Source: a virus
Length of the DNA: 25,416 bases
Strand: one strand, 5' to 3'
Virus record (IMG/VR): IMGVR_UViG_3300032240_000522
Span: 1-25,416 of that record
Shown here: one piece after another, positions 5,278-22,851 of the stretch
Layout of the letters: every line of letters starts with the position of its first letter
How positions within the stretch are numbered: the stretch's first letter is position 1
Made by a program: the position numbers and the translations under genes
Notes under the pieces: model-generated
The model's input: the letters and a program-made list of their open reading frames with translations, nothing else
What the model was told of the DNA's origin: nothing
The model's database searches: none

Positions 5278-6980
5278 TTATATTTCGTAAACTTAGATGG
5301 AAAAACCTTTTATCTACGGGTAATATTTTTACAGAAATAGATTTGAATACACATAATACAACTCTTATTGTTGGTGAAAATGGGGCGGGTAAATCAACAA
5401 TTTTAGACGCCTTGTCTTATGTGTTGTTTGGGAAATCTTTCCGTAAAATTAACAAACCTCAATTACTTAATTCTATTACTATGAAAAATTTAGTAGTAGA
5501 AGTAGAATTTAATATCGGTAGTAAAGAATATAAAATCGTTCGCGGTATTCGTCCTAATATTTTTGAAGTGTATCAAAATGGATCTCTTCTCAACCAATCG
5601 GCTGAGATGAAAGACTATCAAGAAATTCTTGAGAAACAAATTTTAAAAGTAAACCATAAATCTTTCTGCCAAGTTGTTGTTCTTGGTTCAGCAACATTTC
5701 AACCTTTTATGCAGCTTAGTGGTTCTGCTCGGAGAGAAATCATTGAAGACCTTTTGGATCTTCAAATTTTTACGACTATGAATTCTTTGCTAAAAGATAA
5801 AGTTCTCATAAACACAGATCAAGTAAATTCTTCAGTTGCAGAAAAAAAATTGATTGAGAGTAAAATAGCTCTTGCTAAAGAGCATCTTATTGAAATTCAA
5901 AATAACAACGAACAATTAATCAAAGATAAAAAAGATCGTATTGAAGAAACTAATAAACAAATAAACATACTTAATGATAGATATTGGGAACACGAAAATA
6001 AACGTAAAGATCTAGTAGAATCAATTGGTGATCAAGAATCGCTTACTAAAAAAGTAAATAAACTATCTTCTTTAAAACACCAAATTGAAGCAAAGCGTGC
6101 TATAATCGAAAAAGATATTAAATTTTTCGAGAAACACGAGAACTGTCCGACTTGTACTCAATCAATTAGTGCTGAATTTAGAGAAATAACAGTCCATTCA
6201 AAACACAATGAGATTGAAACTATTGATAGTGGTTTAGATCAATTGATTAAACAGTATGAAGAAACAAATGCTCGTCTTAATGAGATTATGGATATTCAAG
6301 CTGAAATTAATAATCAGCGTATGGAAATTAATAGCGTTAAAACTAAAACTACTTCTTTGATTGAGTATCGCGATGAGTTGGAAAAAGATATAGGATCTTT
6401 AAAGAAAAAAGAAAAAACAGAAGATGATAGTAAAATCGGTGAATATGAAAAAAATTTGAAAAATATAGAAAAACAATATAATGATCATATTGAAGAAAGA
6501 TCTATTTTAAACGCTGCAGGTTTTCTTTTAAAAGATGGTGGTATTAAATCAAAGATTGTTAAACAGTATATACCTGTTATCAATCGTTTGATCAACAAAT
6601 ATCTTTCTTCTATGGAATTTATGTGTCAGTTTGAGTTAGACGAAAACTTCAACGAAACTATTAAGTCTCGTTATAGAGACGAATTTAGCTATGCTTCTTT
6701 CTCAGAAGGCGAGAAAATGAGAATTAATCTCGCGATCTTGTTCACATGGAGAGCAGTAGCAAAGCTTCGTAATTCTATTAACACAAATCTTTTGATCATG
6801 GACGAGGTGTTTGATAGCTCTTTGGATGCTAACGGGACAGAAGAATTCCTCAAGATAATAAAAAGCTTGACTTTTGAGACGAATACGTTTATAATAAGTC
6901 ATAAGGGTGATCAGCTCTTTGATAAATTCGAGAAAGTTCTCAAGTTCGAAAAACACAAAAACTTTTCAAGGATAGCATGA
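5274..6980 (+). CDS. 46: gp46-like recombination endonuclease subunit (Rad50/SbcC type)
   Basis: 568 residues (T4 gp46 is 560). SMC-like ATPase partner of gp47. Walker A GENGAGKS (34-41); QVVVLGSATFQPFM (~133-146) as in T4; long coiled coil ~175-420 broken by the zinc hook CPTC (291-294); signature FSEGEK (~475-482); Walker B LLIMDEVFDSS (~510); and a terminal FIISHKGD. The start is TTG at 5274 overlapping the previous stop, with no in-frame ATG upstream and the family N-terminus beginning there. The ribosome site is weak (GGAT), so coupling to the preceding gene probably drives translation. Confidence 0.95.
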   Translation: MIIFRKLRWKNLLSTGNIFTEIDLNTHNTTLIVGENGAGKSTILDALSYVLFGKSFRKINKPQLLNSITMKNLVVEVEFNIGSKEYKIVRGIRPNIFEVYQNGSLLNQSAEMKDYQEILEKQILKVNHKSFCQVVVLGSATFQPFMQLSGSARREIIEDLLDLQIFTTMNSLLKDKVLINTDQVNSSVAEKKLIESKIALAKEHLIEIQNNNEQLIKDKKDRIEETNKQINILNDRYWEHENKRKDLVESIGDQESLTKKVNKLSSLKHQIEAKRAIIEKDIKFFEKHENCPTCTQSISAEFREITVHSKHNEIETIDSGLDQLIKQYEETNARLNEIMDIQAEINNQRMEINSVKTKTTSLIEYRDELEKDIGSLKKKEKTEDDSKIGEYEKNLKNIEKQYNDHIEERSILNAAGFLLKDGGIKSKIVKQYIPVINRLINKYLSSMEFMCQFELDENFNETIKSRYRDEFSYASFSEGEKMRINLAILFTWRAVAKLRNSINTNLLIMDEVFDSSLDANGTEEFLKIIKSLTFETNTFIISHKGDQLFDKFEKVLKFEKHKNFSRIA

Positions 6981-7534
6981 TGTTTGAAACTCTTGTTATA
7001 GATAATTTTTTAGATGAAAATCAACAGATTATTGTAAGAGATAATTTGCTTTCTCGCGCGAAGTGGAATCTTGTTAATGATATGAGTATGAAGGATGATG
7101 CATATCCTTCATATGGATTTGTTCATTTGTTTAATCATCCAGAGCAAGGCATACTTTCTGAATTTTATGAAGCTGTCGTTGATCTTTTTATTCCCAAAAT
7201 AAATTTGGCAGCTAATATAGAAGTTAAAGATGTGTATTATACAAGATCTTTTCTACAAGTTCCTTTAGAAAAGAAATTTTATAAAGACCGTAATAATATT
7301 CATGTTGATGTTCCAGTAAAACATATTGCAGCTGTTTATTATGTTACTGATTCTGATGGTGACACCATAATTTATGAGAATAGAATTGGTGAGGATGTTA
7401 AAGAATTAATTAGACATAAAACAGTAACACCTAAATCAGGAAGATTAGTTATGTTTGATGGTTCTCGTTTCCATTGTAGTAGCCAACCAAAAAAAAGTTT
7501 ACGTTGTATAATTAATTTTGATTTGGTGGTTTAA
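6977..7534 (+). CDS. 2-oxoglutarate/Fe(II) oxygenase (prolyl-hydroxylase-like)
   Basis: 185 residues. The iron triad is visible as H109-x-D111 (NIHVDVP) and H166 (SRFHCSSQ), with R176 as the likely 2-oxoglutarate contact (SLRCIINF); PKSGRLVMFDGSRFH is the standard strand before the distal His. The substrate is unknown. Such enzymes are frequent in T4-like environmental phages. It is coupled to gp46 by ATGA; ATG 6980 is an alternative start with better spacing from AGGA at 6969-6972. It is unrelated in sequence to the TET/JBP-like oxygenase further along. Confidence 0.85.
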   Translation: MMFETLVIDNFLDENQQIIVRDNLLSRAKWNLVNDMSMKDDAYPSYGFVHLFNHPEQGILSEFYEAVVDLFIPKINLAANIEVKDVYYTRSFLQVPLEKKFYKDRNNIHVDVPVKHIAAVYYVTDSDGDTIIYENRIGEDVKELIRHKTVTPKSGRLVMFDGSRFHCSSQPKKSLRCIINFDLVV

Positions 7535-9558: not shown

Positions 9559-10863
9559 ATGGTTGAAGTTTTGGTAAGAAAAAAGATTGCTTCAGAAGAA
9601 GTTCTTGGAACTTTTGTTAGTAATAATTATTACGATCGTGTCATTGAAGATGATTGTGATCTTTATGCGGAGTCAATTGATGGCACTCTTACTGAAGATA
9701 ATATTATTTTCAAGTTTCGTAAAAACACATTTACAAAAGAAGAGTGCGATGCAGCATATGCTGGTTTGAGAGAAGCAGCAACAGAGTCACAAAATCGTGG
9801 TATGGCTGCTGGTCCTCGTGGCGATCAGCTAGGTCAGGAAGGACGTGGTAATCGCGATTGGGTTACACCAGAACAAATTGAAATTCTTTCTTTTCTTGCC
9901 CGACCTCTCAATACATTTGATGATGGCACTACTGTTGAATCTATCCGTGAAAGTCACAAAGGACCATCAAAAGAAGAAACACGTGGACAGGTTTGGCTTC
10001 GTTCAGAGGTAACTAAGCTTTATCCTGAATATCATGGCTGGTTTGAAAAGTGGCTTTCTAACGCTGTGAAAATGCCTCGTGAGCAACAAATTCATGACGC
10101 TGGTTTTATTGTTAAAAATTACATTTCAGATACAAATTATGCCCAGTCTGTGATGTCTGGTATTGCTGGGTATTTCGATCGTTATCCTCGTATCCCACAT
10201 GGGCGTGCTTGTGCATATAACGAAAAGAATCCAGAAAAGTTTGCTCTTTCATATCCTTATCTTCATAAGCTTAATGATCAATTTCGCGAACTGATTCCTA
10301 ATAGATGGAAAACACAAAATGAACAAGCCAACAGACTTGACGATAGATTCCGTATCGATGGCACTGTGTTCACTACTCTTACTGTCAATCACAATTGGCG
10401 GACAGCCTGTCACCGCGATGCTGGGGATCTCACTACTGGCTTTAGCAATATATGCGGCATTACTGGCCAAGAGGGTAAAGGCTGGAGGGGTGGTCAGTTT
10501 ATTCTCCCTGAGTATCGTATTGCAATTAATCTCCAGCCTGGTGATATGTTACTCGTTAATAATCATGAAGGGATTCACGGCAACGACGAGCTTATCGGTG
10601 ATGAAAATGATCGCATGACTATTGTTGCCTACTTCCGTGAAAAAATGGTTGATCTTAAGTCTTGGGATTACGAAAATCTTCGCAAACAATATGTTGAAGA
10701 GCGTCGCCAAAATAAAGATCATAAATTCCACCGTCCTCTTTGGAATGGTGTTTCACCAGGAATGTGGGAAGACCAAGAGTGGTTTGACTATATGAAAGAT
10801 CATAACATGCCAGATCCGTATGCACAAAAAGTTGCAGCAAGTCTTGAGGATTTCTTCTCTTAA
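9559..10863 (+). CDS. TET/JBP-like 2-oxoglutarate/Fe(II) dioxygenase
   Basis: 434 residues. The core is at ~260-365: VNHNWRTACHRDAGDL with H285 and D287, the strand WRGGQFILPEYRIAINLQPGDMLLVNN (310-335), distal H340 in HGN, and R352 in RMTIVAYF as the likely 2-oxoglutarate Arg. The HRDAGD plus GG-x-x-x-LP-x-Y layout is that of TET/JBP enzymes, which oxidise the methyl group of thymine or 5-methylcytosine in DNA. N- and C-terminal regions (1-200, 365-434) are not assigned. It heads the modification cluster, has its own promoter, and joins the next gene by TAATG. Thymine is the likelier target given the neighbours; that is inference. Confidence 0.85.
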   Translation: MVEVLVRKKIASEEVLGTFVSNNYYDRVIEDDCDLYAESIDGTLTEDNIIFKFRKNTFTKEECDAAYAGLREAATESQNRGMAAGPRGDQLGQEGRGNRDWVTPEQIEILSFLARPLNTFDDGTTVESIRESHKGPSKEETRGQVWLRSEVTKLYPEYHGWFEKWLSNAVKMPREQQIHDAGFIVKNYISDTNYAQSVMSGIAGYFDRYPRIPHGRACAYNEKNPEKFALSYPYLHKLNDQFRELIPNRWKTQNEQANRLDDRFRIDGTVFTTLTVNHNWRTACHRDAGDLTTGFSNICGITGQEGKGWRGGQFILPEYRIAINLQPGDMLLVNNHEGIHGNDELIGDENDRMTIVAYFREKMVDLKSWDYENLRKQYVEERRQNKDHKFHRPLWNGVSPGMWEDQEWFDYMKDHNMPDPYAQKVAASLEDFFS

Positions 10864-11549
10864 TGTGTGGTGTTCTTGGCATTGCCATTAGAAACTTTTC
10901 AGAGAAAGATCACGATTTAGTTCGTGGTCTTTTCATTCAATCTATGATCCGTGGTAAACATGCGACTGGTGTTTCGTATGTGAAAAATGGTCGTGTAAAT
11001 ACAATTAAAGAACCAACACCTGCTAATGAGTTCATTATGAAGCAGGATCTAAACGAATGGAGAAATGAAGATGGAAATCTCTACTGTATTGGGCACATTA
11101 GATATTCAACTTCTGATCTGCGTTATAATCAGCCTATGTCTAGCGATAAACTATCTATTGCCCATAATGGTGTCATATCTCAAGAACCACCTGAAACTTG
11201 GGAAGACAAATATAAACTCAGAACAGAAACCTCAAACGACTCAGAGCTTGTTCTGCGAGCGATGGAAGAAAATGTGAATCCTCTTCAACATTTTGAACCT
11301 GCTTCTATGGCAGTTTGTGCTTTGTACAATGATAAAAGAATTGTAGCTTTTCGAAATGCAGAACGACCATTATATTATGCTTATGATGTAAATCATATTG
11401 TATTTACTTCAACTGAAGATATTGCCAAAAGATCTAACTTGACTAATATTCAAAAAACTAGTATGCTTACTATGTATACTGTTGAACATTTCCAAATGAA
11501 CGCTGTTCATGATATTTTAAGAAATTCCGACGCAAAGGATTTGCAATGA
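10863..11549 (+). CDS. Class II glutamine amidotransferase
   Basis: 228 residues. N-terminal nucleophile hydrolase of the GATase-6/7 type: catalytic Cys2 in MCGVLG, then GKHATGVSYV, IGHIRYST (~78-85), SIAHNGVI (~96-103) and NDSELVL (~121-127). These domains release ammonia from glutamine and hand it to a synthase domain; here no synthase is fused, so a separate partner, most likely the amidoligase next door, would use it. It is coupled by TAATG to the TET/JBP-like gene and by ATGA to the amidoligase. Confidence 0.9.
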   Translation: MCGVLGIAIRNFSEKDHDLVRGLFIQSMIRGKHATGVSYVKNGRVNTIKEPTPANEFIMKQDLNEWRNEDGNLYCIGHIRYSTSDLRYNQPMSSDKLSIAHNGVISQEPPETWEDKYKLRTETSNDSELVLRAMEENVNPLQHFEPASMAVCALYNDKRIVAFRNAERPLYYAYDVNHIVFTSTEDIAKRSNLTNIQKTSMLTMYTVEHFQMNAVHDILRNSDAKDLQ

Positions 11550-12466
11550 ACAAATATGATAGAAGTACATTCACCTATGGTTTTGAAATCGAGTGGGGTG
11601 ACATTGATCGTAATATGTCAATCCCTCCAGAACTTGGAGCTTGGGAATTTTGTGAGACAGATATTATCAATTTGCGCGAACCTTATCGTGGTCTTGGATC
11701 AGACCCAAAAGGTGTGAATCCTCCTGTTGGTGGTGAAATTAACACCAAGCCAACAAAAACTTGGCAGGAACAAGTTGATAATATCATGAAGCTTCATGAC
11801 ATGTTTGTTGAACATGGAACACCTCCTACTGCTGGTTGTGTTAATCATGGTCACCTTCATATTCATGTTCCAGGATTGACAGAAGATATTGAAGCTCTAA
11901 AACGTCTTTCGCTTTATCTTCGTGACAATCAGCACATGACTATTGATAGTTGTTATCAATTTAGAATTTATCCTAACATGGAAATGACAAAAACTGCTAA
12001 GACATATCTTAAGCATGATGGTGGGCGTATTATGCCTGATTGGCTAGGCACAAACCTAGGAACAGTTCCTGTTGATTTTGATGATTGGATCCGTGTGCAT
12101 TGTTGTGGTAAAGATACTAAGACGCAGTCTCGTCCTTTCAGGTATGGTATTCATAGCTATGCTTTGAAAAATTCAAAAACAATCGAGTTTCGTTGTTTTC
12201 GTAGCTCAATTGATCGTTGCGAAATTGAAGATTGTTTCAAGTTTGCAACTGAATGGATTGATGCAGCATTGAACAATGGTCCTGACGTGCAAGAAATTTT
12301 GCTAGCTAACGATTATAAGTTCCCTCCTTTTGAATACGATCATGAAATGTATCTTGGTTGGGAAAAAACCAAACATGAACGTACTGATCGTAACCTTGAT
12401 GATGAAACAGCCGAGAAGCTTGGTCTTAACAAGCTTGGCAAGTCTCGTAAATTTCTTTCAGTATGA
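11546..12466 (+). CDS. Amidoligase (glutamine-synthetase/GCS-like COOH-NH2 ligase)
   Basis: 306 residues. Shows the pattern of the phage amidoligase family: FTYGFEIEWGD at the start, VGGEINTKPTKTW (~61-73), CVNHGHLHIHVPGL (~97-110), then RYGIHSYALKNSKTIEFRCF (~199-218). The acidic and His positions in FEIE, GGE and HLHIH are the metal/ATP ligands of this fold. Such enzymes join a carboxylate to an amine using ATP. Placed between a glutamine amidotransferase and an acetyltransferase, it most likely amidates or conjugates an intermediate or the modified base. The actual substrate is unknown. Confidence 0.8.
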   Translation: MNKYDRSTFTYGFEIEWGDIDRNMSIPPELGAWEFCETDIINLREPYRGLGSDPKGVNPPVGGEINTKPTKTWQEQVDNIMKLHDMFVEHGTPPTAGCVNHGHLHIHVPGLTEDIEALKRLSLYLRDNQHMTIDSCYQFRIYPNMEMTKTAKTYLKHDGGRIMPDWLGTNLGTVPVDFDDWIRVHCCGKDTKTQSRPFRYGIHSYALKNSKTIEFRCFRSSIDRCEIEDCFKFATEWIDAALNNGPDVQEILLANDYKFPPFEYDHEMYLGWEKTKHERTDRNLDDETAEKLGLNKLGKSRKFLSV

Positions 12467-13116
12467 TCTATAAAACGCTTGACAAAACCGAATATTTAAG
12501 CTATCATAATACCCTGGTTGGGAAAGACAAGAAGTTTTCCAAAGTAGCCATGGGAATGTGGAACTTTATGAAAGCTTGGGAAAAATGGCCACCCAGAGTT
12601 TTAGAGGAAAACGGTGAGATACTTTCCGTTTGCTTCATGAAACTTTCTAATCAAGCGAAGACAAAAGTACTTTTTATTTCTAATATCTTTACTCCGACTC
12701 CTGGTCGTGGTAAAGGTTCTGCTAGAGAAATGTTACATCGTAACATTCTTGAGGCGGTTGAATTGGGAGCCAGAACTATTCGGTTAGACTGTAACCGTGC
12801 AGCTCTTGGTTTCTATGATAAACTTGGAATGACATATTGGGGAACCACTATTAGTCATTCTATGTTCTGTGATTTACCTATTAACAGCAAAGGAGTCGAA
12901 TGCTTTAACACAACAAAAAACATGTCTGCAGTAGAAATCTTTAATGCATATAGCCCAGAACTCAAAGCCGCAAAGTTAAAGTGGATATCTAAAAAAGTCA
13001 AGAAACATGAAAAGTATGACTTTGGACATCCATCGCGTTACAATGAGTTTATGTCGCTGCAAGTTTTCAAAACACTAGAACCAAACGAGAAGGATCTCAA
13101 CAATGTTAAACTTTGA
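12463..13116 (+). CDS. GNAT-family N-acetyltransferase
   Basis: 217 residues. Acetyl-CoA-binding motif A is visible as ISNIFTPTPGRGKGSAREML (~73-92), with the R-x-x-G-x-G/A loop GRGKGSA, followed by AVELGARTIRLDCNRAALGFYDKLGMTYWG, the motif B region with the classic FYDKLGM. N- and C-terminal extensions are unassigned. In this cluster it could acylate an amine placed on the modified base. Coupled by ATGA to the amidoligase; it overlaps the next gene by 14 bases. Confidence 0.85.
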   Translation: MIYKTLDKTEYLSYHNTLVGKDKKFSKVAMGMWNFMKAWEKWPPRVLEENGEILSVCFMKLSNQAKTKVLFISNIFTPTPGRGKGSAREMLHRNILEAVELGARTIRLDCNRAALGFYDKLGMTYWGTTISHSMFCDLPINSKGVECFNTTKNMSAVEIFNAYSPELKAAKLKWISKKVKKHEKYDFGHPSRYNEFMSLQVFKTLEPNEKDLNNVKL

Positions 13117-14548
13117 ACCCAATAACTGGTACGTATACATCATCAATAACAATCGCACTAACTGGCTCTATGTTGGTTTGCATAATCAACAGACAAAGGC
13201 ATACACTCATTCTTCTAGTAGTGTAATGCTTCAGGATGCTATTGATAAGGGTGAAACTTCTGATTATATTGTTTGGAAAGGAACAAATAAGGAAAAGGCT
13301 CATGCACTTGAGACTTATTTGATTAACCTTGCCAAGGACAATGGTTATAACGTCTACAACATGAATAGTGGTGGTGGTTATAAGGGTGGTGCTCGTCAAA
13401 ATATTTTGACACCTGAAGATTACAACATTGGTGAAAACATTATTCTGCATAAAGTTTTCCCAAAATCTATTGATACTGATGATGAGGTTGAGGTGAATGA
13501 ACGCCTTCAAAATCTGGCGCGAGAAGTTCGTGATCTCGTTGCAGATGTAACAGATGGTAATCATAATCCTCATTACCTTGTTTATGAGCCTATCGATAAG
13601 ATCATTGATTTGCCATTTTTGCAAATTCGTATCAATGCTGTCGATAGAGATAATGTTGACCGTGTTATTGAGTCCATGGACATGGATATTAAGAAGGCAG
13701 AACGTCTAGTTGAGGCTGTTTCTATCGTTCGTTTCAAGAGCGGTCGTCTTCTTCGTGTTGATGGCACAACTACAGTTTATGCTATCAAGGAGTTAAATAA
13801 GTGGAAAACAGTTCCAGTTGTTTACCTTGATTCTGAATTGTTTAACGACAATGAAACATATATGGAAGTTTATGCAACATTGCGTAATCGTCCAGAAAAG
13901 CATAAGGGCGCGAACGATCCTAAGAAAGAACTGAAAGCTCGTATTCGCAACTTCCATAATGCAAATCCTGATCTTTTCGCGCGAAGCCCCGAAGATTTCG
14001 GTAAGAAGTTTATGGCTCTTTTCAAGGGGTCGTATTCTGAGCGTTCTATGCAATCAAATTTGAATGTTTATATCAAGAACATCAATGATCGAAATAGTCG
14101 TGGTGATAATTGGTTAGACTATAACATTGATGAAGGTAAACTTCTTGATTGGATTTCATACAAAGTACGTTTGATGTTTGAGCGTTCTGAATGTACTCGT
14201 ATCGCTGTATCTGCTCTCGAGCGCGAGGGCGTTGCTAACCCAATGAATTATTTTGGTAATGGCCCCAGCGGTAAAACTACTTCAGTAATTCTTGCGCATC
14301 ACACTTCACCTGCTACTGAAGATCGAGAAAATTATCACTTCGAGCGTATGACAAATGCTCTCACTGAAGCTGGTTATTCTCTGGATAATACGAAGCAAAT
14401 GTATGGGTATACTCCTTTTGTCAGCAAAATTACTGGGAAGAAAATTTTCGTAGTTTTCCTTCCTTGTCGTGTTGATACAAAAGCGGGTATTGACGAGAAT
14501 TTAATTCTCAGTAAACTTTTTGATGAACAACATCTCATTGCAGCGTAA
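13103..14548 (+). CDS. GIY-YIG-like plus ParB-like two-domain protein
   Basis: 481 residues. The N-terminal ~95 residues read as a GIY-YIG-type fold: NNWYVYIINN (~7-16), WLYVGLHN (~21-28), a helix with AHALETYLINL and YNVYNMNSGGG. After a linker, ~170-260 looks ParB/sulfiredoxin-like: INAVDRDNVDRVIESM, LLRVDGTTTVYAIKEL and KTVPVVYLD, the usual strand-DGxxRxxA-helix order but with TT in place of the basic residue. The remainder (NRPEKHKGANDPKKELKARI onward) is unassigned. ParB-like proteins accompany several predicted phage base-modification operons, so DNA binding or recognition of modification sites is plausible. Confidence 0.65.
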   Translation: MLNFEPNNWYVYIINNNRTNWLYVGLHNQQTKAYTHSSSSVMLQDAIDKGETSDYIVWKGTNKEKAHALETYLINLAKDNGYNVYNMNSGGGYKGGARQNILTPEDYNIGENIILHKVFPKSIDTDDEVEVNERLQNLAREVRDLVADVTDGNHNPHYLVYEPIDKIIDLPFLQIRINAVDRDNVDRVIESMDMDIKKAERLVEAVSIVRFKSGRLLRVDGTTTVYAIKELNKWKTVPVVYLDSELFNDNETYMEVYATLRNRPEKHKGANDPKKELKARIRNFHNANPDLFARSPEDFGKKFMALFKGSYSERSMQSNLNVYIKNINDRNSRGDNWLDYNIDEGKLLDWISYKVRLMFERSECTRIAVSALEREGVANPMNYFGNGPSGKTTSVILAHHTSPATEDRENYHFERMTNALTEAGYSLDNTKQMYGYTPFVSKITGKKIFVVFLPCRVDTKAGIDENLILSKLFDEQHLIAA

Positions 14549-15515
14549 GCAAGATTTCATAAACTGGTATCGCTGGTCGCTTTCCATCAAGGATTGCGAT
14601 CCAGCGATATTCATGACCAATTACTTGTTCCGTAGATTCGAGCATAACAGAGAACAAAAGCTCTGGATATCTTGGATCTACGGCACAACGTATTTCCTTC
14701 CAACAACATGGGTGATTTGGAATGAGTTTCCAGACTTCGAACTCGTCGGTGTTGAAAGACTCCGAGAATGGAATAATAACAATTACAAACGGCTCCGTTA
14801 CCAAACTGACACCAAATGGAATAAAGGTCATCTTCCAGCCCAGTTCGAGTCCTACAAGCAATGGGTTGGTGATAAAACTCAACGGGAAACATTTCAACCG
14901 TTCCTCACAGGATCTCCCACAGAAAACTTCGAACACCTCTGGTTAGAAGTAAAGACAAATTTCCATAAGTTTGGTCGCTATTCTACTTGGTTTTATTTAC
15001 AAACACTAAAACAGTGTTGTGATATGCCAATCGAACCAACCAACCTTATGCTTGATGATTATGATGGTTCAAGGTCTCACCGTAATGGTTTGCTCATGGC
15101 TTTAGGTCTTGATGAATGGTATGATCAAAAACTTACTGAAAGTCAGTTAAACTATATTGATGGTCAGGCATATTATATTTTGCAAGAAGTTAAACAGGAA
15201 TTTCCTAACACTGATTATTTTGATATGGAAACCTGTTTGTGTTCGTTTAAGAAACTATTTCGTGAACGTAATGGTAGATATCTCGGTTATTATCTTGACC
15301 GTCAAGCAGAAGAAATTTCTAAATGTCAAAAAGATGGTTGGGATGGTATTGACTGGCAACCACTTTGGGATTCTAGAGTAGAAACTCTAGAAAATAAACT
15401 GTTGACTAATCGTATAGATAATAGTAGAATGAGTCTATACTTAAAAAATAACATACTAGACGCTACTGGCTTATTTACCAAATCATATGATAACCTTGAG
15501 GAGTTTTTTAAATGA
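14520..15515 (+). CDS. Alpha-glutamyl/putrescinyl-thymine pyrophosphorylase-like protein (clade 2 type)
   Basis: 331 residues. RRFEHNREQKLWISWIYGTT (~38-57), VIWNEFPDFELVGVERLREW (~64-83), NNYKRLRYQTDTKWNKGHLP and FESYKQWVG are the wording I associate with aGPT-Pplase clade 2 proteins, predicted DNA-glycosylase-fold enzymes that displace the phosphate of 5-phosphomethyl-uracil with an amine. The second half carries YDGSRSHRNGLLMALGLDEW. It begins within the preceding gene (29-base overlap) and is followed by the matching P-loop kinase, overlapping by 4 bases: the expected partner for this chemistry. The start may instead be ATG 14523. Confidence 0.7.
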   Translation: MMNNISLQRKQDFINWYRWSLSIKDCDPAIFMTNYLFRRFEHNREQKLWISWIYGTTYFLPTTWVIWNEFPDFELVGVERLREWNNNNYKRLRYQTDTKWNKGHLPAQFESYKQWVGDKTQRETFQPFLTGSPTENFEHLWLEVKTNFHKFGRYSTWFYLQTLKQCCDMPIEPTNLMLDDYDGSRSHRNGLLMALGLDEWYDQKLTESQLNYIDGQAYYILQEVKQEFPNTDYFDMETCLCSFKKLFRERNGRYLGYYLDRQAEEISKCQKDGWDGIDWQPLWDSRVETLENKLLTNRIDNSRMSLYLKNNILDATGLFTKSYDNLEEFFK

Positions 15516-16060
15516 AAGTTATTGCGATTGGTGGCGAGCCTGGAGCAGGTAAGTCGACACTAATGCGTCGGCTGATTGAAGACATTAAAGCTGTTCCGAA
15601 ATATAATGAGTATAAGCTAGTTCCATATCTTCAGTATTTCGAAATTTTTATTCTTGGTAAATATGAAGAAGGTGAAGTATTTTCTGGCACCGATCGTATG
15701 AGTATGGCAGTTCAACCAGAAGCTATTAAGTTTCTTACGTACTTGCCCGAAAACGCTATTGTTCTTTTTGAAGGCGATAGACTTTTCACAGCATCATTTC
15801 TAGAACATTGTGTTGAGAAATACGATACAAAAATTGTTTATCTTAAAACTACTAAGGATATTCGTTCTGATAGGTATAAGGAACGAGGTAGTGAACAAAA
15901 TGAAACTTGGCTTCAAGGTCGCGAAACTAAGATCGCAAATATCCTAACAAATATGACATTGATGTTTAATATTGAAACGTTCGAGAATAATAATCTCGAT
16001 CAGCAACAGGCTGTATATAAAAGGATTTTAAGTTATGTTCAACAACCCGTTCACGAATAA
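15512..16060 (+). CDS. P-loop kinase, probable 5-hydroxymethyl-uracil DNA kinase
   Basis: 182 residues. Walker A GGEPGAGKST (7-16) at the very N-terminus; DRMSMAVQPEAIKFL (~61-75); IVLFEGDRLF (~83-92) as the Walker B-like acidic strand; and R-rich lid segment IRSDRYKERGSEQNETWLQGRETK. The protein is the size of a small nucleotide or DNA-hydroxymethyl kinase. Kinases of this kind phosphorylate 5-hydroxymethyl-uracil in phage DNA to set up nucleophilic substitution. The position directly after the aGPT-Pplase-like gene (ATGA overlap) and downstream of a TET/JBP-like enzyme supports that role over nucleotide kinase. Confidence 0.75.
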   Translation: MKVIAIGGEPGAGKSTLMRRLIEDIKAVPKYNEYKLVPYLQYFEIFILGKYEEGEVFSGTDRMSMAVQPEAIKFLTYLPENAIVLFEGDRLFTASFLEHCVEKYDTKIVYLKTTKDIRSDRYKERGSEQNETWLQGRETKIANILTNMTLMFNIETFENNNLDQQQAVYKRILSYVQQPVHE

Positions 16061-16391
16061 AACGCCATATCAAGTAAAGTATGGTTTGCCTCCAGAAGAT
16101 AATTTACCCACAGATATTTCATATAAATATGCTGAGGATCAGATTATTGCAGATTTCAAAACCTATATAGATAAGACATATGGTCAGCACTATAAGACCA
16201 GAAAAGATTCTATCGAATGTTTTGATGCGTGGATTGCTTTAGATGATGCTACTCCTACTTTCAGAAATACAGCCCTGAAATATCTTTGGCGTTACGGTAA
16301 GAAAAACGGTAGCAATAAAGACGACTTGATGAAAACTTTGCACTACACATTGATGTGTTTATATAACGACCACTATAAGGATGATAAATAA
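16035..16391 (+). CDS. DUF3310-like small protein
   Basis: 118 residues. The C-terminal ~60 residues (CFDAWIALDDATPTFRNTAL, then KYLWRYGKKNGSNKDDLMKT) follow the DUF3310/phage small kinase-associated pattern, in which NALKYxxRxGxK is followed by a helix of DLxKAxxYL. The N-terminal half (YQVKYGLPPEDNLP) is unassigned. It overlaps the kinase by 26 bases and the glycosyltransferase by TAATG. Function is not established for this family. Confidence 0.65.
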   Translation: MFNNPFTNKTPYQVKYGLPPEDNLPTDISYKYAEDQIIADFKTYIDKTYGQHYKTRKDSIECFDAWIALDDATPTFRNTALKYLWRYGKKNGSNKDDLMKTLHYTLMCLYNDHYKDDK

Positions 16392-17245
16392 TGGAAATTA
16401 ATATACCTATTGAGGATTTGAAGGCACGTAAACTTTTTATTGCCACACCTATGTATGGTGGTCAGTGCGCAGGAATGTTTGCTAAATCTATATCAGATCT
16501 TTCTGCACTTTGCGCAAATTATGGTATCCCCCTTCAAATGTATTTCTTGTTTAACGAGTCATTGATTACTCGTGCAAGAAACTATTGTTGTGATGAGTTT
16601 ATGCGTTCAGATGCATCTCATCTTATGTTTATTGACTCTGATATCGGTTTCAATCCTCAAGACATTATCGCAATGATGGCTCTTCAGGCTCAGGATGAAG
16701 AGAAGTATGAGATCATCGGTGGTCCTTACCCAAAGAAATGCATTAGCTGGGAAAAGATTAAGGCTGCAGTTGATAAGGGTGTTGCTGATGATGACGCTAA
16801 TGTTCTTGAAAAGTTCGTTGGTGACTTTGTGTTTAATCCAAAGGGTGGTCAGCAGAGTATTGCTATCGGTGAGCCTTGTGAAGTTCTAGAAATCGGTACT
16901 GGTTTCATGATGATCACAAAGAAGGCTATGCAAAGATTTGCTGATACATACCCTGAATATCTATACCGCCCTGATCATGTTCGCACTGAACATTTTGATG
17001 GCACACGTGAGATTATGATGTTCTTTCAGGCTGAAGTTGATCCTGAGACAAAGCGTTACCTTTCAGAAGATTATTGGTTTTGTCAAAAGGCTCAGAAGGC
17101 AAATATTAAAACTTGGCTCTGTCCTTGGATGAAATTGCAGCATGTTGGCACCTATATCTTTGGTGGCTCACTTGCTGATTTGGCATCAATTGGTGCTGCT
17201 GCAACTGCCGACCCTGGTAATTTGGGCGGCAAAAAGAAGAAGTGA
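16391..17245 (+). CDS. GT-A-fold glycosyltransferase
   Basis: 284 residues. KLFIATPMYGGQCAGMFAKS at the start, NESLITRARN (~55-64), and the DxD motif in HLMFIDSDIGFNPQDI (~76-91) are typical of family-2-like GT-A glycosyltransferases; EIGTGFMMITKKAM and SEDYWFCQKAQKANIKTWLC supply the acceptor-side acidic pair (ED). LQHVGTYIFGG follows. No signal or membrane segment, so it acts in the cytoplasm. It may glycosylate the modified base, since it is last in the cluster and coupled to it; an envelope or protein target cannot be excluded. Confidence 0.75.
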   Translation: MEINIPIEDLKARKLFIATPMYGGQCAGMFAKSISDLSALCANYGIPLQMYFLFNESLITRARNYCCDEFMRSDASHLMFIDSDIGFNPQDIIAMMALQAQDEEKYEIIGGPYPKKCISWEKIKAAVDKGVADDDANVLEKFVGDFVFNPKGGQQSIAIGEPCEVLEIGTGFMMITKKAMQRFADTYPEYLYRPDHVRTEHFDGTREIMMFFQAEVDPETKRYLSEDYWFCQKAQKANIKTWLCPWMKLQHVGTYIFGGSLADLASIGAAATADPGNLGGKKKK

Positions 17246-21787: not shown

Positions 21788-21864
21788 GGACTCCTAGCTC
21801 AGTTGGTTAGAGCATCGGACTTTTAATCCGTGGGTCCTGGGTTCGAGTCCCAGGGAGTTCACCA
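21788..21864 (+). tRNA. tRNA-Lys(TTT)
   Basis: Complete cloverleaf: acceptor GGACTCC/GGAGTTC, anticodon loop CTTTTAA, T-loop TTCGAGT, encoded CCA. First tRNA of the array. Confidence 0.97.
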
Positions 21865-21870
21865 TAATAC

Positions 21871-21945
21871 TGGCGTATAGCTCAGCGGTAGAGCACTGTC
21901 CTGATAAGACAGGGGTCAATGGATCGTAACCATTTACGCCAACCA
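21871..21945 (+). tRNA. tRNA-Ile(GAT) with unusual T-loop
   Basis: Acceptor TGGCGTA/TACGCCA, D-stem GCTC/GAGC, anticodon stem CTGTC/GACAG with loop CTGATAA, encoded CCA. The T-loop reads ATCGTAA instead of TTCRANN: positions 54 and 58 are exchanged (A54, T58). Confidence 0.88.
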
Positions 21946-21949
21946 GTAA

Positions 21950-22026
21950 CGGAGATTGGCTCAGTCTGGTAGAGCATTCGCTTTGGGAGCGAAGGGTCGC
22001 AAGTTCGAATCTTGCATCTCCGACCA
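21950..22026 (+). tRNA. tRNA-Pro(TGG)
   Basis: Acceptor CGGAGAT/ATCTCCG, anticodon stem TTCGC/GCGAA with loop TTTGGGA, T-loop TTCGAAT, encoded CCA. Confidence 0.97.
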
Positions 22027-22032
22027 ATCCCC

Positions 22033-22077
22033 GCCATCCCGATACGTCGGTTGGCACCTCCAGTTTCCGGACTGGAG
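22033..22077 (+). other. Two tandem hairpins between tRNA-Pro and tRNA-Ser
   Basis: Hairpin 1: CCGA-TACG-TCGG extended by GCCA/TGGC (22033-22055). Hairpin 2: CTCCAGT/ACTGGAG with a TTCCGG loop (22058-22077). No tRNA fits. They may be processing spacers or remnants of a lost tRNA. Confidence 0.5.
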
Positions 22078-22086
22078 ACTTATAAC

Positions 22087-22176
22087 GGAAGAATGGCCGA
22101 GTGGTTGATGGCTCTAGTCTTGAAAACTAGCATACCTGCAAGGGTATCGTGGGTTCGAATCCTACTTCTTCCGCCA
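22087..22176 (+). tRNA. tRNA-Ser(TGA)
   Basis: Acceptor GGAAGAA/TTCTTCC, anticodon stem CTAGT/ACTAG with loop CTTGAAA, long class II variable arm (ATACCTGCAAGGGTAT), T-loop TTCGAAT, encoded CCA; 90 bases. Confidence 0.97.
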
Positions 22177-22182
22177 TAATAT

Positions 22183-22260
22183 CCTCTGTTGGTGTAGCGG
22201 TCAAACATACCCGCCTTTCAAGCGTGGAGAGCATCGGTTCAAATCCGATACGGAGGACCA
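22183..22260 (+). tRNA. tRNA-Glu(TTC)
   Basis: Acceptor CCTCTGT/ACGGAGG, anticodon loop CTTTCAA, T-stem ATCGG/CCGAT with loop TTCAAAT, encoded CCA. The anticodon stem has one C-T mismatch. Confidence 0.9.
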
Positions 22261-22265
22261 AATAA

Positions 22266-22341
22266 GGACCATTAGCTCAGCTGGTAGAGCAGGAGACTCT
22301 TAATCTCTTTGTCGCAGGTTCGATCCCTGCATGGTTCACCA
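22266..22341 (+). tRNA. tRNA-Lys(CTT)
   Basis: Acceptor GGACCAT/ATGGTTC, anticodon stem GGAGA/TCTCT with loop CTCTTAA, T-loop TTCGATC, encoded CCA. Second lysine tRNA in the array. Confidence 0.96.
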
Positions 22342-22350
22342 AAATAATGC

Positions 22351-22379
22351 TTGACTTTTGGTACTAAATAAAGTATTAT
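22351..22379 (+). promoter_or_regulatory. Sigma70 promoter for the lipoprotein gene
   Basis: TTGACT (22351-22356), 17-base spacer, TATTAT (22374-22379), inside the tRNA array directly upstream of the lipoprotein gene. It also could feed the downstream tRNAs. Confidence 0.75.
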
Positions 22380-22407
22380 AGTAATACGATAAAGTTTGGA
22401 GGTTAAT

Positions 22408-22686
22408 ATGCATAAGATTCTAATCGCGGTTGTAGCTACTCTTTCTCTTGCTGGTTGTACTGCTAGAGAGCAGCAGATTTTGGCCGCTGGTACTGTCGGT
22501 GCTGTTGCTGGTGCAGTCATTGCTAATGAGGTTAATCAGCCTCGTCCAGTTTATGTTGAAGAACGTAGACCTGTATATTACGAGGAACGTCGTCCTGTTT
22601 ATGTAGTACCTCCTCGTCGGCCACAATGTTTCTCCACTTGGGAGAACACTCATCGTGGTATGGTAGAACGTAGAGTCTGCCGATAA
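22408..22686 (+). CDS. Small lipoprotein with tyrosine/proline repeats
   Basis: 92 residues from ATG 22408, which has TGGAGG at 22397-22402. Signal peptide MHKILIAVVATLSLAG with lipobox LAGC, so Cys17 would be lipidated. Next comes a glycine/alanine-rich segment GTVGAVAGAVIANEV (~28-42, glycine-zipper-like), then three RRPVY(V/Y)-type repeats with EE between them, and a C-terminal region with two Cys (PQCFSTW ... RRVCR). Probably anchored to the inner face of the outer membrane; possible roles are superinfection exclusion or envelope change, both inference. It has its own promoter. Confidence 0.82.
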   Translation: MHKILIAVVATLSLAGCTAREQQILAAGTVGAVAGAVIANEVNQPRPVYVEERRPVYYEERRPVYVVPPRRPQCFSTWENTHRGMVERRVCR

Positions 22687-22693
22687 AGTTTAT

Positions 22694-22770
22694 TCGCTTG
22701 AACCCGAATAGGTATCGGGACCTGACTGTTAATCAGGCCACTGTAGGTTCGAATCCTACCAAGCGAGCCA
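22694..22770 (+). tRNA. tRNA-Asn(GTT)
   Basis: Acceptor TCGCTTG/CAAGCGA, anticodon stem CCTGA/TCAGG with loop CTGTTAA, T-loop TTCGAAT, encoded CCA. Position 8 is A instead of the near-universal T, and the D-stem is CCCG/CGGG instead of GNNC-like. Confidence 0.93.
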
Positions 22771-22776
22771 AATATG

Positions 22777-22851
22777 CCCGATTAGCTCAGCGGTAGTAGC
22801 GTTTCCTTTACACGGAAAATGTCGGCGGTTCAATCCCGTCATCGGGTACCA
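22777..22851 (+). tRNA. tRNA-Val(TAC)
   Basis: Acceptor GCCCGAT/ATCGGGT, anticodon stem TTTCC/GGAAA with loop TTTACAC, T-loop TTCAATC, encoded CCA. The D-stem has only three clear pairs. Confidence 0.94.

Follow-up and report, generated by a model that had tools for sequence, protein, structure and literature searches.

The closest described relatives of the system discussed here are the thymidine hypermodification systems of the PaMx11/M6 type, which encode a member of the PF18724 family of amino acid:DNA transferases (ADDT), an adjoining P-loop kinase and, beside them, a GNAT-family acyltransferase. PaMx11 is said to be a modified-thymine phage, and in the account of Lee et al. 2022 it reportedly uses glycine and a flavin enzyme to produce 5-aminomethyl-deoxyuridine (5-aminomethyl-dU), which is then acetylated. 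The phages M6, ViI and phi W-14 have modified thymines (PMC6449724), and 5-aminomethyluracil occurs as a phage DNA base (PMC11550810). In this work, we analyse a cassette of the same general type in IMG/VR virus record IMGVR_UViG_3300032240_000522, positions 1 to 25,416 (25.4 kb, hereafter the window), and focus on three of its genes: a free-standing class II glutamine amidotransferase (GAT), an amidoligase (AML) and a GNAT acyltransferase. The window shares the PF18724 transferase, the adjoining kinase and the nearby GNAT with PaMx11 and M6. It differs in that 5-hydroxymethyluracil would be supplied by a TET/JBP dioxygenase rather than by a deoxyuridine monophosphate (dUMP) hydroxymethylase, and in the addition of GAT and an amidoligase with a glutamine synthetase (GS) fold. 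No flavin enzyme domain was found in the scanned open reading frames (ORFs) of the window, and a gp47-like protein was present only in PaMx11 and phage Simon among the loci examined.

Other systems resemble the window in part. Phage Simon carries an AML of the same superfamily inside its ADDT/kinase cluster; unlike the window, this cluster has neither GAT nor TET, has the flavin route and encodes an LMWPc protein in place of GNAT. Systems of the Iyer 2009 type (LUZ24, phiEco32) encode a class II GATase and an Amidoligase_2-like enzyme close together, as the window does. However, LUZ24 has ATP-grasp, COOH-NH2 ligase and gamma-glutamyl cyclotransferase genes without an ADDT, and its GATase is longer than the window GAT (26-30% identity over the N-terminal part). 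Among the scanned window ORFs around the cassette, there were no ATP-grasp or gamma-glutamyl cyclotransferase genes. Finally, in the CmoA/CmoX/CmoY carboxymethylcytosine system, CmoY ligates an amide on a DNA base; the ATP-dependent amide bond and the ParBc protein often encoded nearby recall the window (PMC12783734). That system acts on cytosine, through a carboxyl handle on the base and an AMP-forming asparagine-synthetase homologue, whereas the window has a GS-fold ligase.

Linkage to TET, ADDT and kinase genes throughout the sampled loci strongly supports the view that the three genes belong to a thymine-hypermodification cassette acting on phage DNA. This agrees with a sequence-only reading of the window, which had proposed that they tailor a modified thymine. 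We lean, by a narrow measure, towards the cassette making an acylated 5-aminomethyl-uracil in phage DNA. More specifically, the chances seem to us evenly balanced that GAT feeds ammonia to a DNA-acting transferase aminating the base in the polymer and that the GS-fold ligase builds an amide on that amine. The product is probably, as the same reading held, something other than plain glutamyl- or putrescinyl-thymine.

Layout of the cassette and identity of its enzymes

The replication and recombination genes of the window form a backbone of the T4 type (UvsY, UvsW, sliding clamp, clamp loader, RegA). The cassette is single and co-directional, is flanked by MazG and a DUF3310/clamp block, and runs from the dioxygenase to the kinase in the following order:

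9559..10863, + strand: TET/JBP 2-oxoglutarate-Fe(II) (2OG-Fe(II)) dioxygenase (PF12851 Tet_JBP)
10863..11549, + strand: GAT, free-standing class II (N-terminal nucleophile, Ntn) glutamine amidotransferase, 228 aa (PF13522 GATase_6)
11546..12466, + strand: AML, amidoligase (carboxylate-amine ligase) with the GS/glutamate-cysteine ligase (GCS) fold, 306 aa (fold of the AlphaFold (AF2) model)
12463..13116, + strand: GNAT1-family acyltransferase, 217 aa (PF00583)
13103..14548, + strand: GIY-YIG and ParB-like protein, an optional member (PF01541 below cut-off; ParB read from sequence)
14520..15515, + strand: ADDT clade A (ADDT-A), amino acid:DNA transferase family (PF18724)
15512..16060, + strand: P-loop kinase (PF18751 Ploopntkinase3)
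16035..17245, + strand: DUF3310 protein and glycosyltransferase-like protein, the constant right edge of the slot (weak PF11753 and Anp1 matches)

The GAT, AML and GNAT ORFs are open, intact, in the same direction and coupled. The sequence-only reading had placed them in this order behind the dioxygenase, with 4-base overlaps: the order stands, and the overlaps are found at the GAT/AML and AML/GNAT junctions (ATGA), but the dioxygenase stop and the GAT start share just 1 base (TAATG). GNAT and the downstream GIY-YIG/ParB gene overlap by 14 bases. The same gene order is kept across dozens of contigs in which homologues are 43-94% (GAT) and 49-92% (AML) identical, and such conservation among diverged homologues rules out a chance arrangement. 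The other half of the cassette (GIY-YIG/ParB protein, ADDT and kinase; 13103-16060) lay outside the span considered in that reading.

It is this half, together with the dioxygenase, that provides the gene set expected of thymidine hypermodification, namely a PF18724 ADDT, an adjacent predicted kinase and a TET/JBP source of 5-hydroxymethyluracil. The dioxygenase scores 67.5 bits against PF12851 (cut-off 34.9) and is predicted to convert thymine in DNA to 5-hydroxymethyluracil. A second, small 2OG-Fe(II) oxygenase-like protein (6977-7534, weak match) is encoded upstream of the cassette and is missing in many relatives. The ADDT scores 84.5 bits (cut-off 26.2) and belongs to a family also matched in Vi01, M6, PaMx11 and PhiW-14; ADDT-A was not found in a search of bacterial genome contigs. 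The kinase (50.7 bits, cut-off 27) has an intact Walker A motif, GEPGAGKST, and is predicted to be a 5-hydroxymethyl-dU DNA kinase. The GIY-YIG/ParB protein occurs in 33 of 75 distinct ADDT-A loci, and in sister cassettes it is absent or another protein of ~517 aa stands instead.

GAT matches PF13522 with 46.2 bits (cut-off 27), and its nearest solved relative is PurF. The features of a class II (Ntn) enzyme are all present: an N-terminal Cys, the Arg of RYST, the oxyanion Asn-Gly of HNG and the Asp of TND (Cys2, Arg80, Asn102-Gly103 and Asp126, invariant across 13 homologues). All aligned homologues also have an invariant Asp-Leu-Gln (DLQ) at or near the C-terminus (11538-11546 in the window), which could be a docking tail. 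GAT is predicted to be the ammonia source for ADDT.

AML alone gave zero Pfam matches; in its family, 9 of 12 members reach PF12224 Amidoligase_2 with scores under the cut-off (best E 0.005). Its AlphaFold model (predicted template modelling score 0.81) aligns with GS, YbdK and glutamate-cysteine ligase at Z ~10 over 170-215 residues. The amidoligase label given from sequence is therefore right, because of this shared fold and not because of a Pfam match. The invariant residues E14, E16, E64, H103, H105, E214 and R216 form an acidic, histidine and arginine set typical of the GS/GCS carboxylate-amine ligase superfamily. AML is predicted to join a carboxylic or amino acid to the amine of the base using ATP. 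GNAT (27.7 bits against PF00583, cut-off 20.7) is predicted to cap either the amine or the AML product; the GNATs and PaMx11 gp48 are kin at the superfamily level, which is too distant for substrate transfer. No solved structure matching the AML or ADDT profiles by sequence was found.

Linkage, co-variation and natural swaps

The loci compared here come from scans seeded with AML, GAT and ADDT-A. Each scan returned its best 80 loci, so the sample consists of related phages and is not random. Distinct ADDT-A loci were counted only with at least 3.6 kb of upstream sequence (n=75). In this set, GAT and TET are universal (75/75 each), followed by GNAT (73/75), the kinase (KIN; 72/75) and AML (61/75). 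Conversely, all 67 GAT loci with room for an ADDT have one, and in the AML- and GAT-seeded scans ADDT, KIN or TET is present in nearly all loci unless a contig end cuts them. GAT was found in none of the 56 distinct loci of the other clade, ADDT-B, in which TET and KIN are visible. When four records with ADDT-B or without any ADDT were searched with the GAT profile, no positive control was run alongside; the same profile does match in the L088 record.

Seven loci first appeared to have ADDT-A without GAT. Four of these (L003, L038, L040 and L347) turned out to be divergent second copies or to match other ADDT clades weakly, and the remaining three (L063, L255 and L276) begin at a contig end.

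In distance matrices covering as many as 84 loci, two pairs stand out: ADDT-GAT (r=0.83) and AML-GNAT (r=0.80). Correlations across the pairs are low (ADDT-AML 0.24, ADDT-GNAT 0.21, GAT-GNAT 0.21, AML-GAT 0.32). With the TET distance fixed, GAT-ADDT holds at 0.73, KIN-ADDT comes to 0.48 and GNAT-ADDT drops to -0.07. Mapped on the ADDT tree, the presence of AML changes some 10 times. By identity, the GNATs fall into four clusters. Two of these (48 and 14 loci) always accompany AML, and the other two (20 and 2 loci) occur solely in its absence; a single-linkage split of the families had lumped every row, and identity clustering was used instead. The GNAT family switches along with AML in 8/8 independent pairs (p = 0.008). 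These joint switches and the distance correlations indicate that GAT and ADDT are one unit and that AML and GNAT are a separate swap unit. Functional coupling can be feigned by synteny and common descent, but for AML and GNAT the repeated swaps argue against this.

GAT and AML also occur apart. GAT stands without AML in 14/75 distinct ADDT-A loci (e.g. L057, L064, L151, L154 and L182), and the AML profile is absent from the whole 110-147 kb records of such loci, while it matches sister records at once. AML without GAT is found at L083, which combines AML and GNAT1 with a pyridoxal phosphate (PLP)-type enzyme and ADDT-B.

Phage Simon (PQ683277) provides a further case, and GAT was not found in its record. 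Its cluster has the order AADT-FAD-AML-LMWPc-kinase and is syntenic with that of PaMx11 over the AADT, flavin enzyme, kinase, gp50, a thymidylate synthase (TS)-like enzyme and an HD protein (34-51% identity; AADT 40%, FAD enzyme 42%, kinase 51%, TS 51%). The AML and LMWPc genes of Simon occupy the exact position of the PaMx11 acetyltransferase gp48, and the Simon AML is 25% identical to that of the window (E 1e-19). The same kind of pair, AML-prime and LMWPc, is present in the T4-like slot at L150 and L157, downstream of GAT and with ADDT-A. GAT plus ADDT-A thus takes the place held elsewhere by the glycine-AADT and the flavin enzyme. If AML-type ligases act in Simon on the amine of the glycine/flavin route, and a related AML-LMWPc pair works beside GAT plus ADDT-A as well, then the latter two probably make this same amine. 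At L150 (2649-3746) and L157 (7669-8763), a GT4-like glycosyltransferase and the LMWPc phosphatase-like protein replace GNAT.

Proposed chemistry and its alternatives

Gene content, intact catalytic residues, folds, linkage and the pattern of co-variation and swaps are observations. In the scheme that we favour, by contrast, we infer every chemical step, and with it the transfer of ammonia to ADDT, the identity of the acyl donors and that of the final base. The TET/JBP enzyme would oxidize thymine to 5-hydroxymethyl-dU, and the kinase would convert this to 5-phosphomethyl-dU. GAT would hydrolyse glutamine and pass the ammonia to ADDT-A, which is predicted to displace the phosphate and leave 5-aminomethyl-dU. 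AML would then use ATP to form an amide between a carboxylic or amino acid and the aminomethyl amine, and the matched GNAT would acetylate the product. In sister phages, the acylation role could fall to GNAT3 alone, by direct acetylation of the amine, or to AML-prime with LMWPc and a glycosyltransferase. PurF serves as the chemical model for the amination: in PurF, ammonia from a class II amidotransferase is used by a transferase that displaces pyrophosphate, without ATP.

Several points weigh against this scheme. A comparison of ADDT-A residues with the transferases of Vi01, M6, PaMx11 and PhiW-14 showed no clear loss of substrate-binding residues, which leaves room for ADDT-A to take an amino acid, as these known amino-acid users do. 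LUZ24 encodes a class II GATase alongside an amidoligase with no ADDT, so a GAT-AML partnership does exist in other phages. No fusions of GAT-ADDT, GAT-AML or AML-GNAT were found among 363 loci; it is the lack of a GAT-ADDT fusion that counts here. Co-variation does not by itself prove contact, since adjacent genes pass on as a block. Lastly, the trees were built quickly and have long branches.

The first two of these points feed the best-surviving alternative, in which ADDT attaches an amino acid (e.g. glutamate) whose carboxylate is then amidated by the amidoligase with ammonia from GAT, while GNAT acylates an amine. It draws on the GATase/amidoligase neighbours of other phages (LUZ24, UFV-P2), on the 4-base overlap between the adjoining GAT and AML genes of the window and on the substrate residues of ADDT-A, which are not clearly lost. 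The sequence-only reading had likewise joined GAT and the amidoligase into one ammonia-to-amide unit. Such a unit is not supported by the comparison of loci: GAT persists without AML, AML persists without GAT in L083 and Simon, and GAT tracks ADDT far more closely than it tracks AML (0.83 versus 0.32). We therefore regard this alternative as unlikely, if still deserving of attention.

The tie between GAT and ADDT-A could also be explained if the residue attached by ADDT-A were glutamine or a different amino acid with an amide group, and if GAT acted as a glutaminase or transamidase that trims the DNA-bound residue before AML and GNAT. ADDT family members elsewhere reportedly use amino acids (Lee et al. 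2018 and 2022), which would fit. GAT has, however, the standard class II catalytic set, and enzymes of this kind normally use free glutamine; we know of no precedent for a class II GATase acting on a DNA-bound residue. This makes trimming improbable in our judgement. That GAT, AML and GNAT modify cell-wall precursors or peptides as mere neighbours of the DNA-modification genes, a role that has been put forward for the amidoligase/GATase pairs of phages like phiEco32 (PMC10580990), is very hard to credit given ADDT, KIN or TET at nearly every AML/GAT locus not cut by a contig end, the replacement of an acetyltransferase by AML within Simon's PaMx11-like thymine cluster, and a slot that is otherwise filled by a TET-associated glycosyltransferase.

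An exchangeable slot in T4-like phages

Relatives recovered by TET similarity keep the backbone, and the stretch from TET to the DUF3310-glycosyltransferase edge varies. It contains the window-type cassette, an ADDT-B set or a TET-associated glycosyltransferase (PF20691), as one would expect if DNA-modification modules are exchanged there. The glycosyltransferase cassettes thus sit in the same TET-DUF3310 slot in sister phages, with glycosylation in place of kinase/ADDT/amide chemistry. ADDT-B loci (L286-L363) have an S-adenosylmethionine (SAM)-methyltransferase-like protein of ~270 aa without a Pfam match in 41/56 distinct loci and a PLP-type enzyme in others. Both assignments come from sequence reading; taken at face value, ADDT-B with either enzyme would be a second tailoring branch of the same slot.

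The glycosyltransferase-like gene at the slot edge (16391-17245) is conserved with or without ADDT and is also present in Cr30 and DLP6; its product may attach a sugar in every one of these phages, or may have nothing to do with modification. Inositol-phosphate-synthase-like genes lie near ADDT at L038 (4922-6082, read from sequence) and L003 (13293-14474, Cr30, annotated), which suggests a possible inositol-related tailoring. Vibrio phage 2.275.O (L006, 7896-9005) encodes a distant AML homologue beside 7-deazaguanine genes and an annotated nucleophile aminohydrolase, and its record has no ADDT; AML-type ligases may also take part in a different modification of DNA bases. Elsewhere in the window, 16 tRNA genes form one cluster (21788-24883), and a TctC-type tripartite tricarboxylate transporter receptor (PF03401; 23376-24329) is encoded within this array.

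Altogether, a puzzling string of genes resolves into two functional units whose roles can be tested, and the deposited phage Simon and the sister cassettes offer natural gene swaps. The analysis also predicts a new way of placing an amine on DNA. If true, it would be a PurF-like amination on DNA that gives 5-aminomethyl-dU by a second route, one that needs neither glycine nor flavin and feeds plug-in acylating units. Many environmental T4-like phages would then share an aminomethyl handle, on which exchangeable acylation units build their base modifications.

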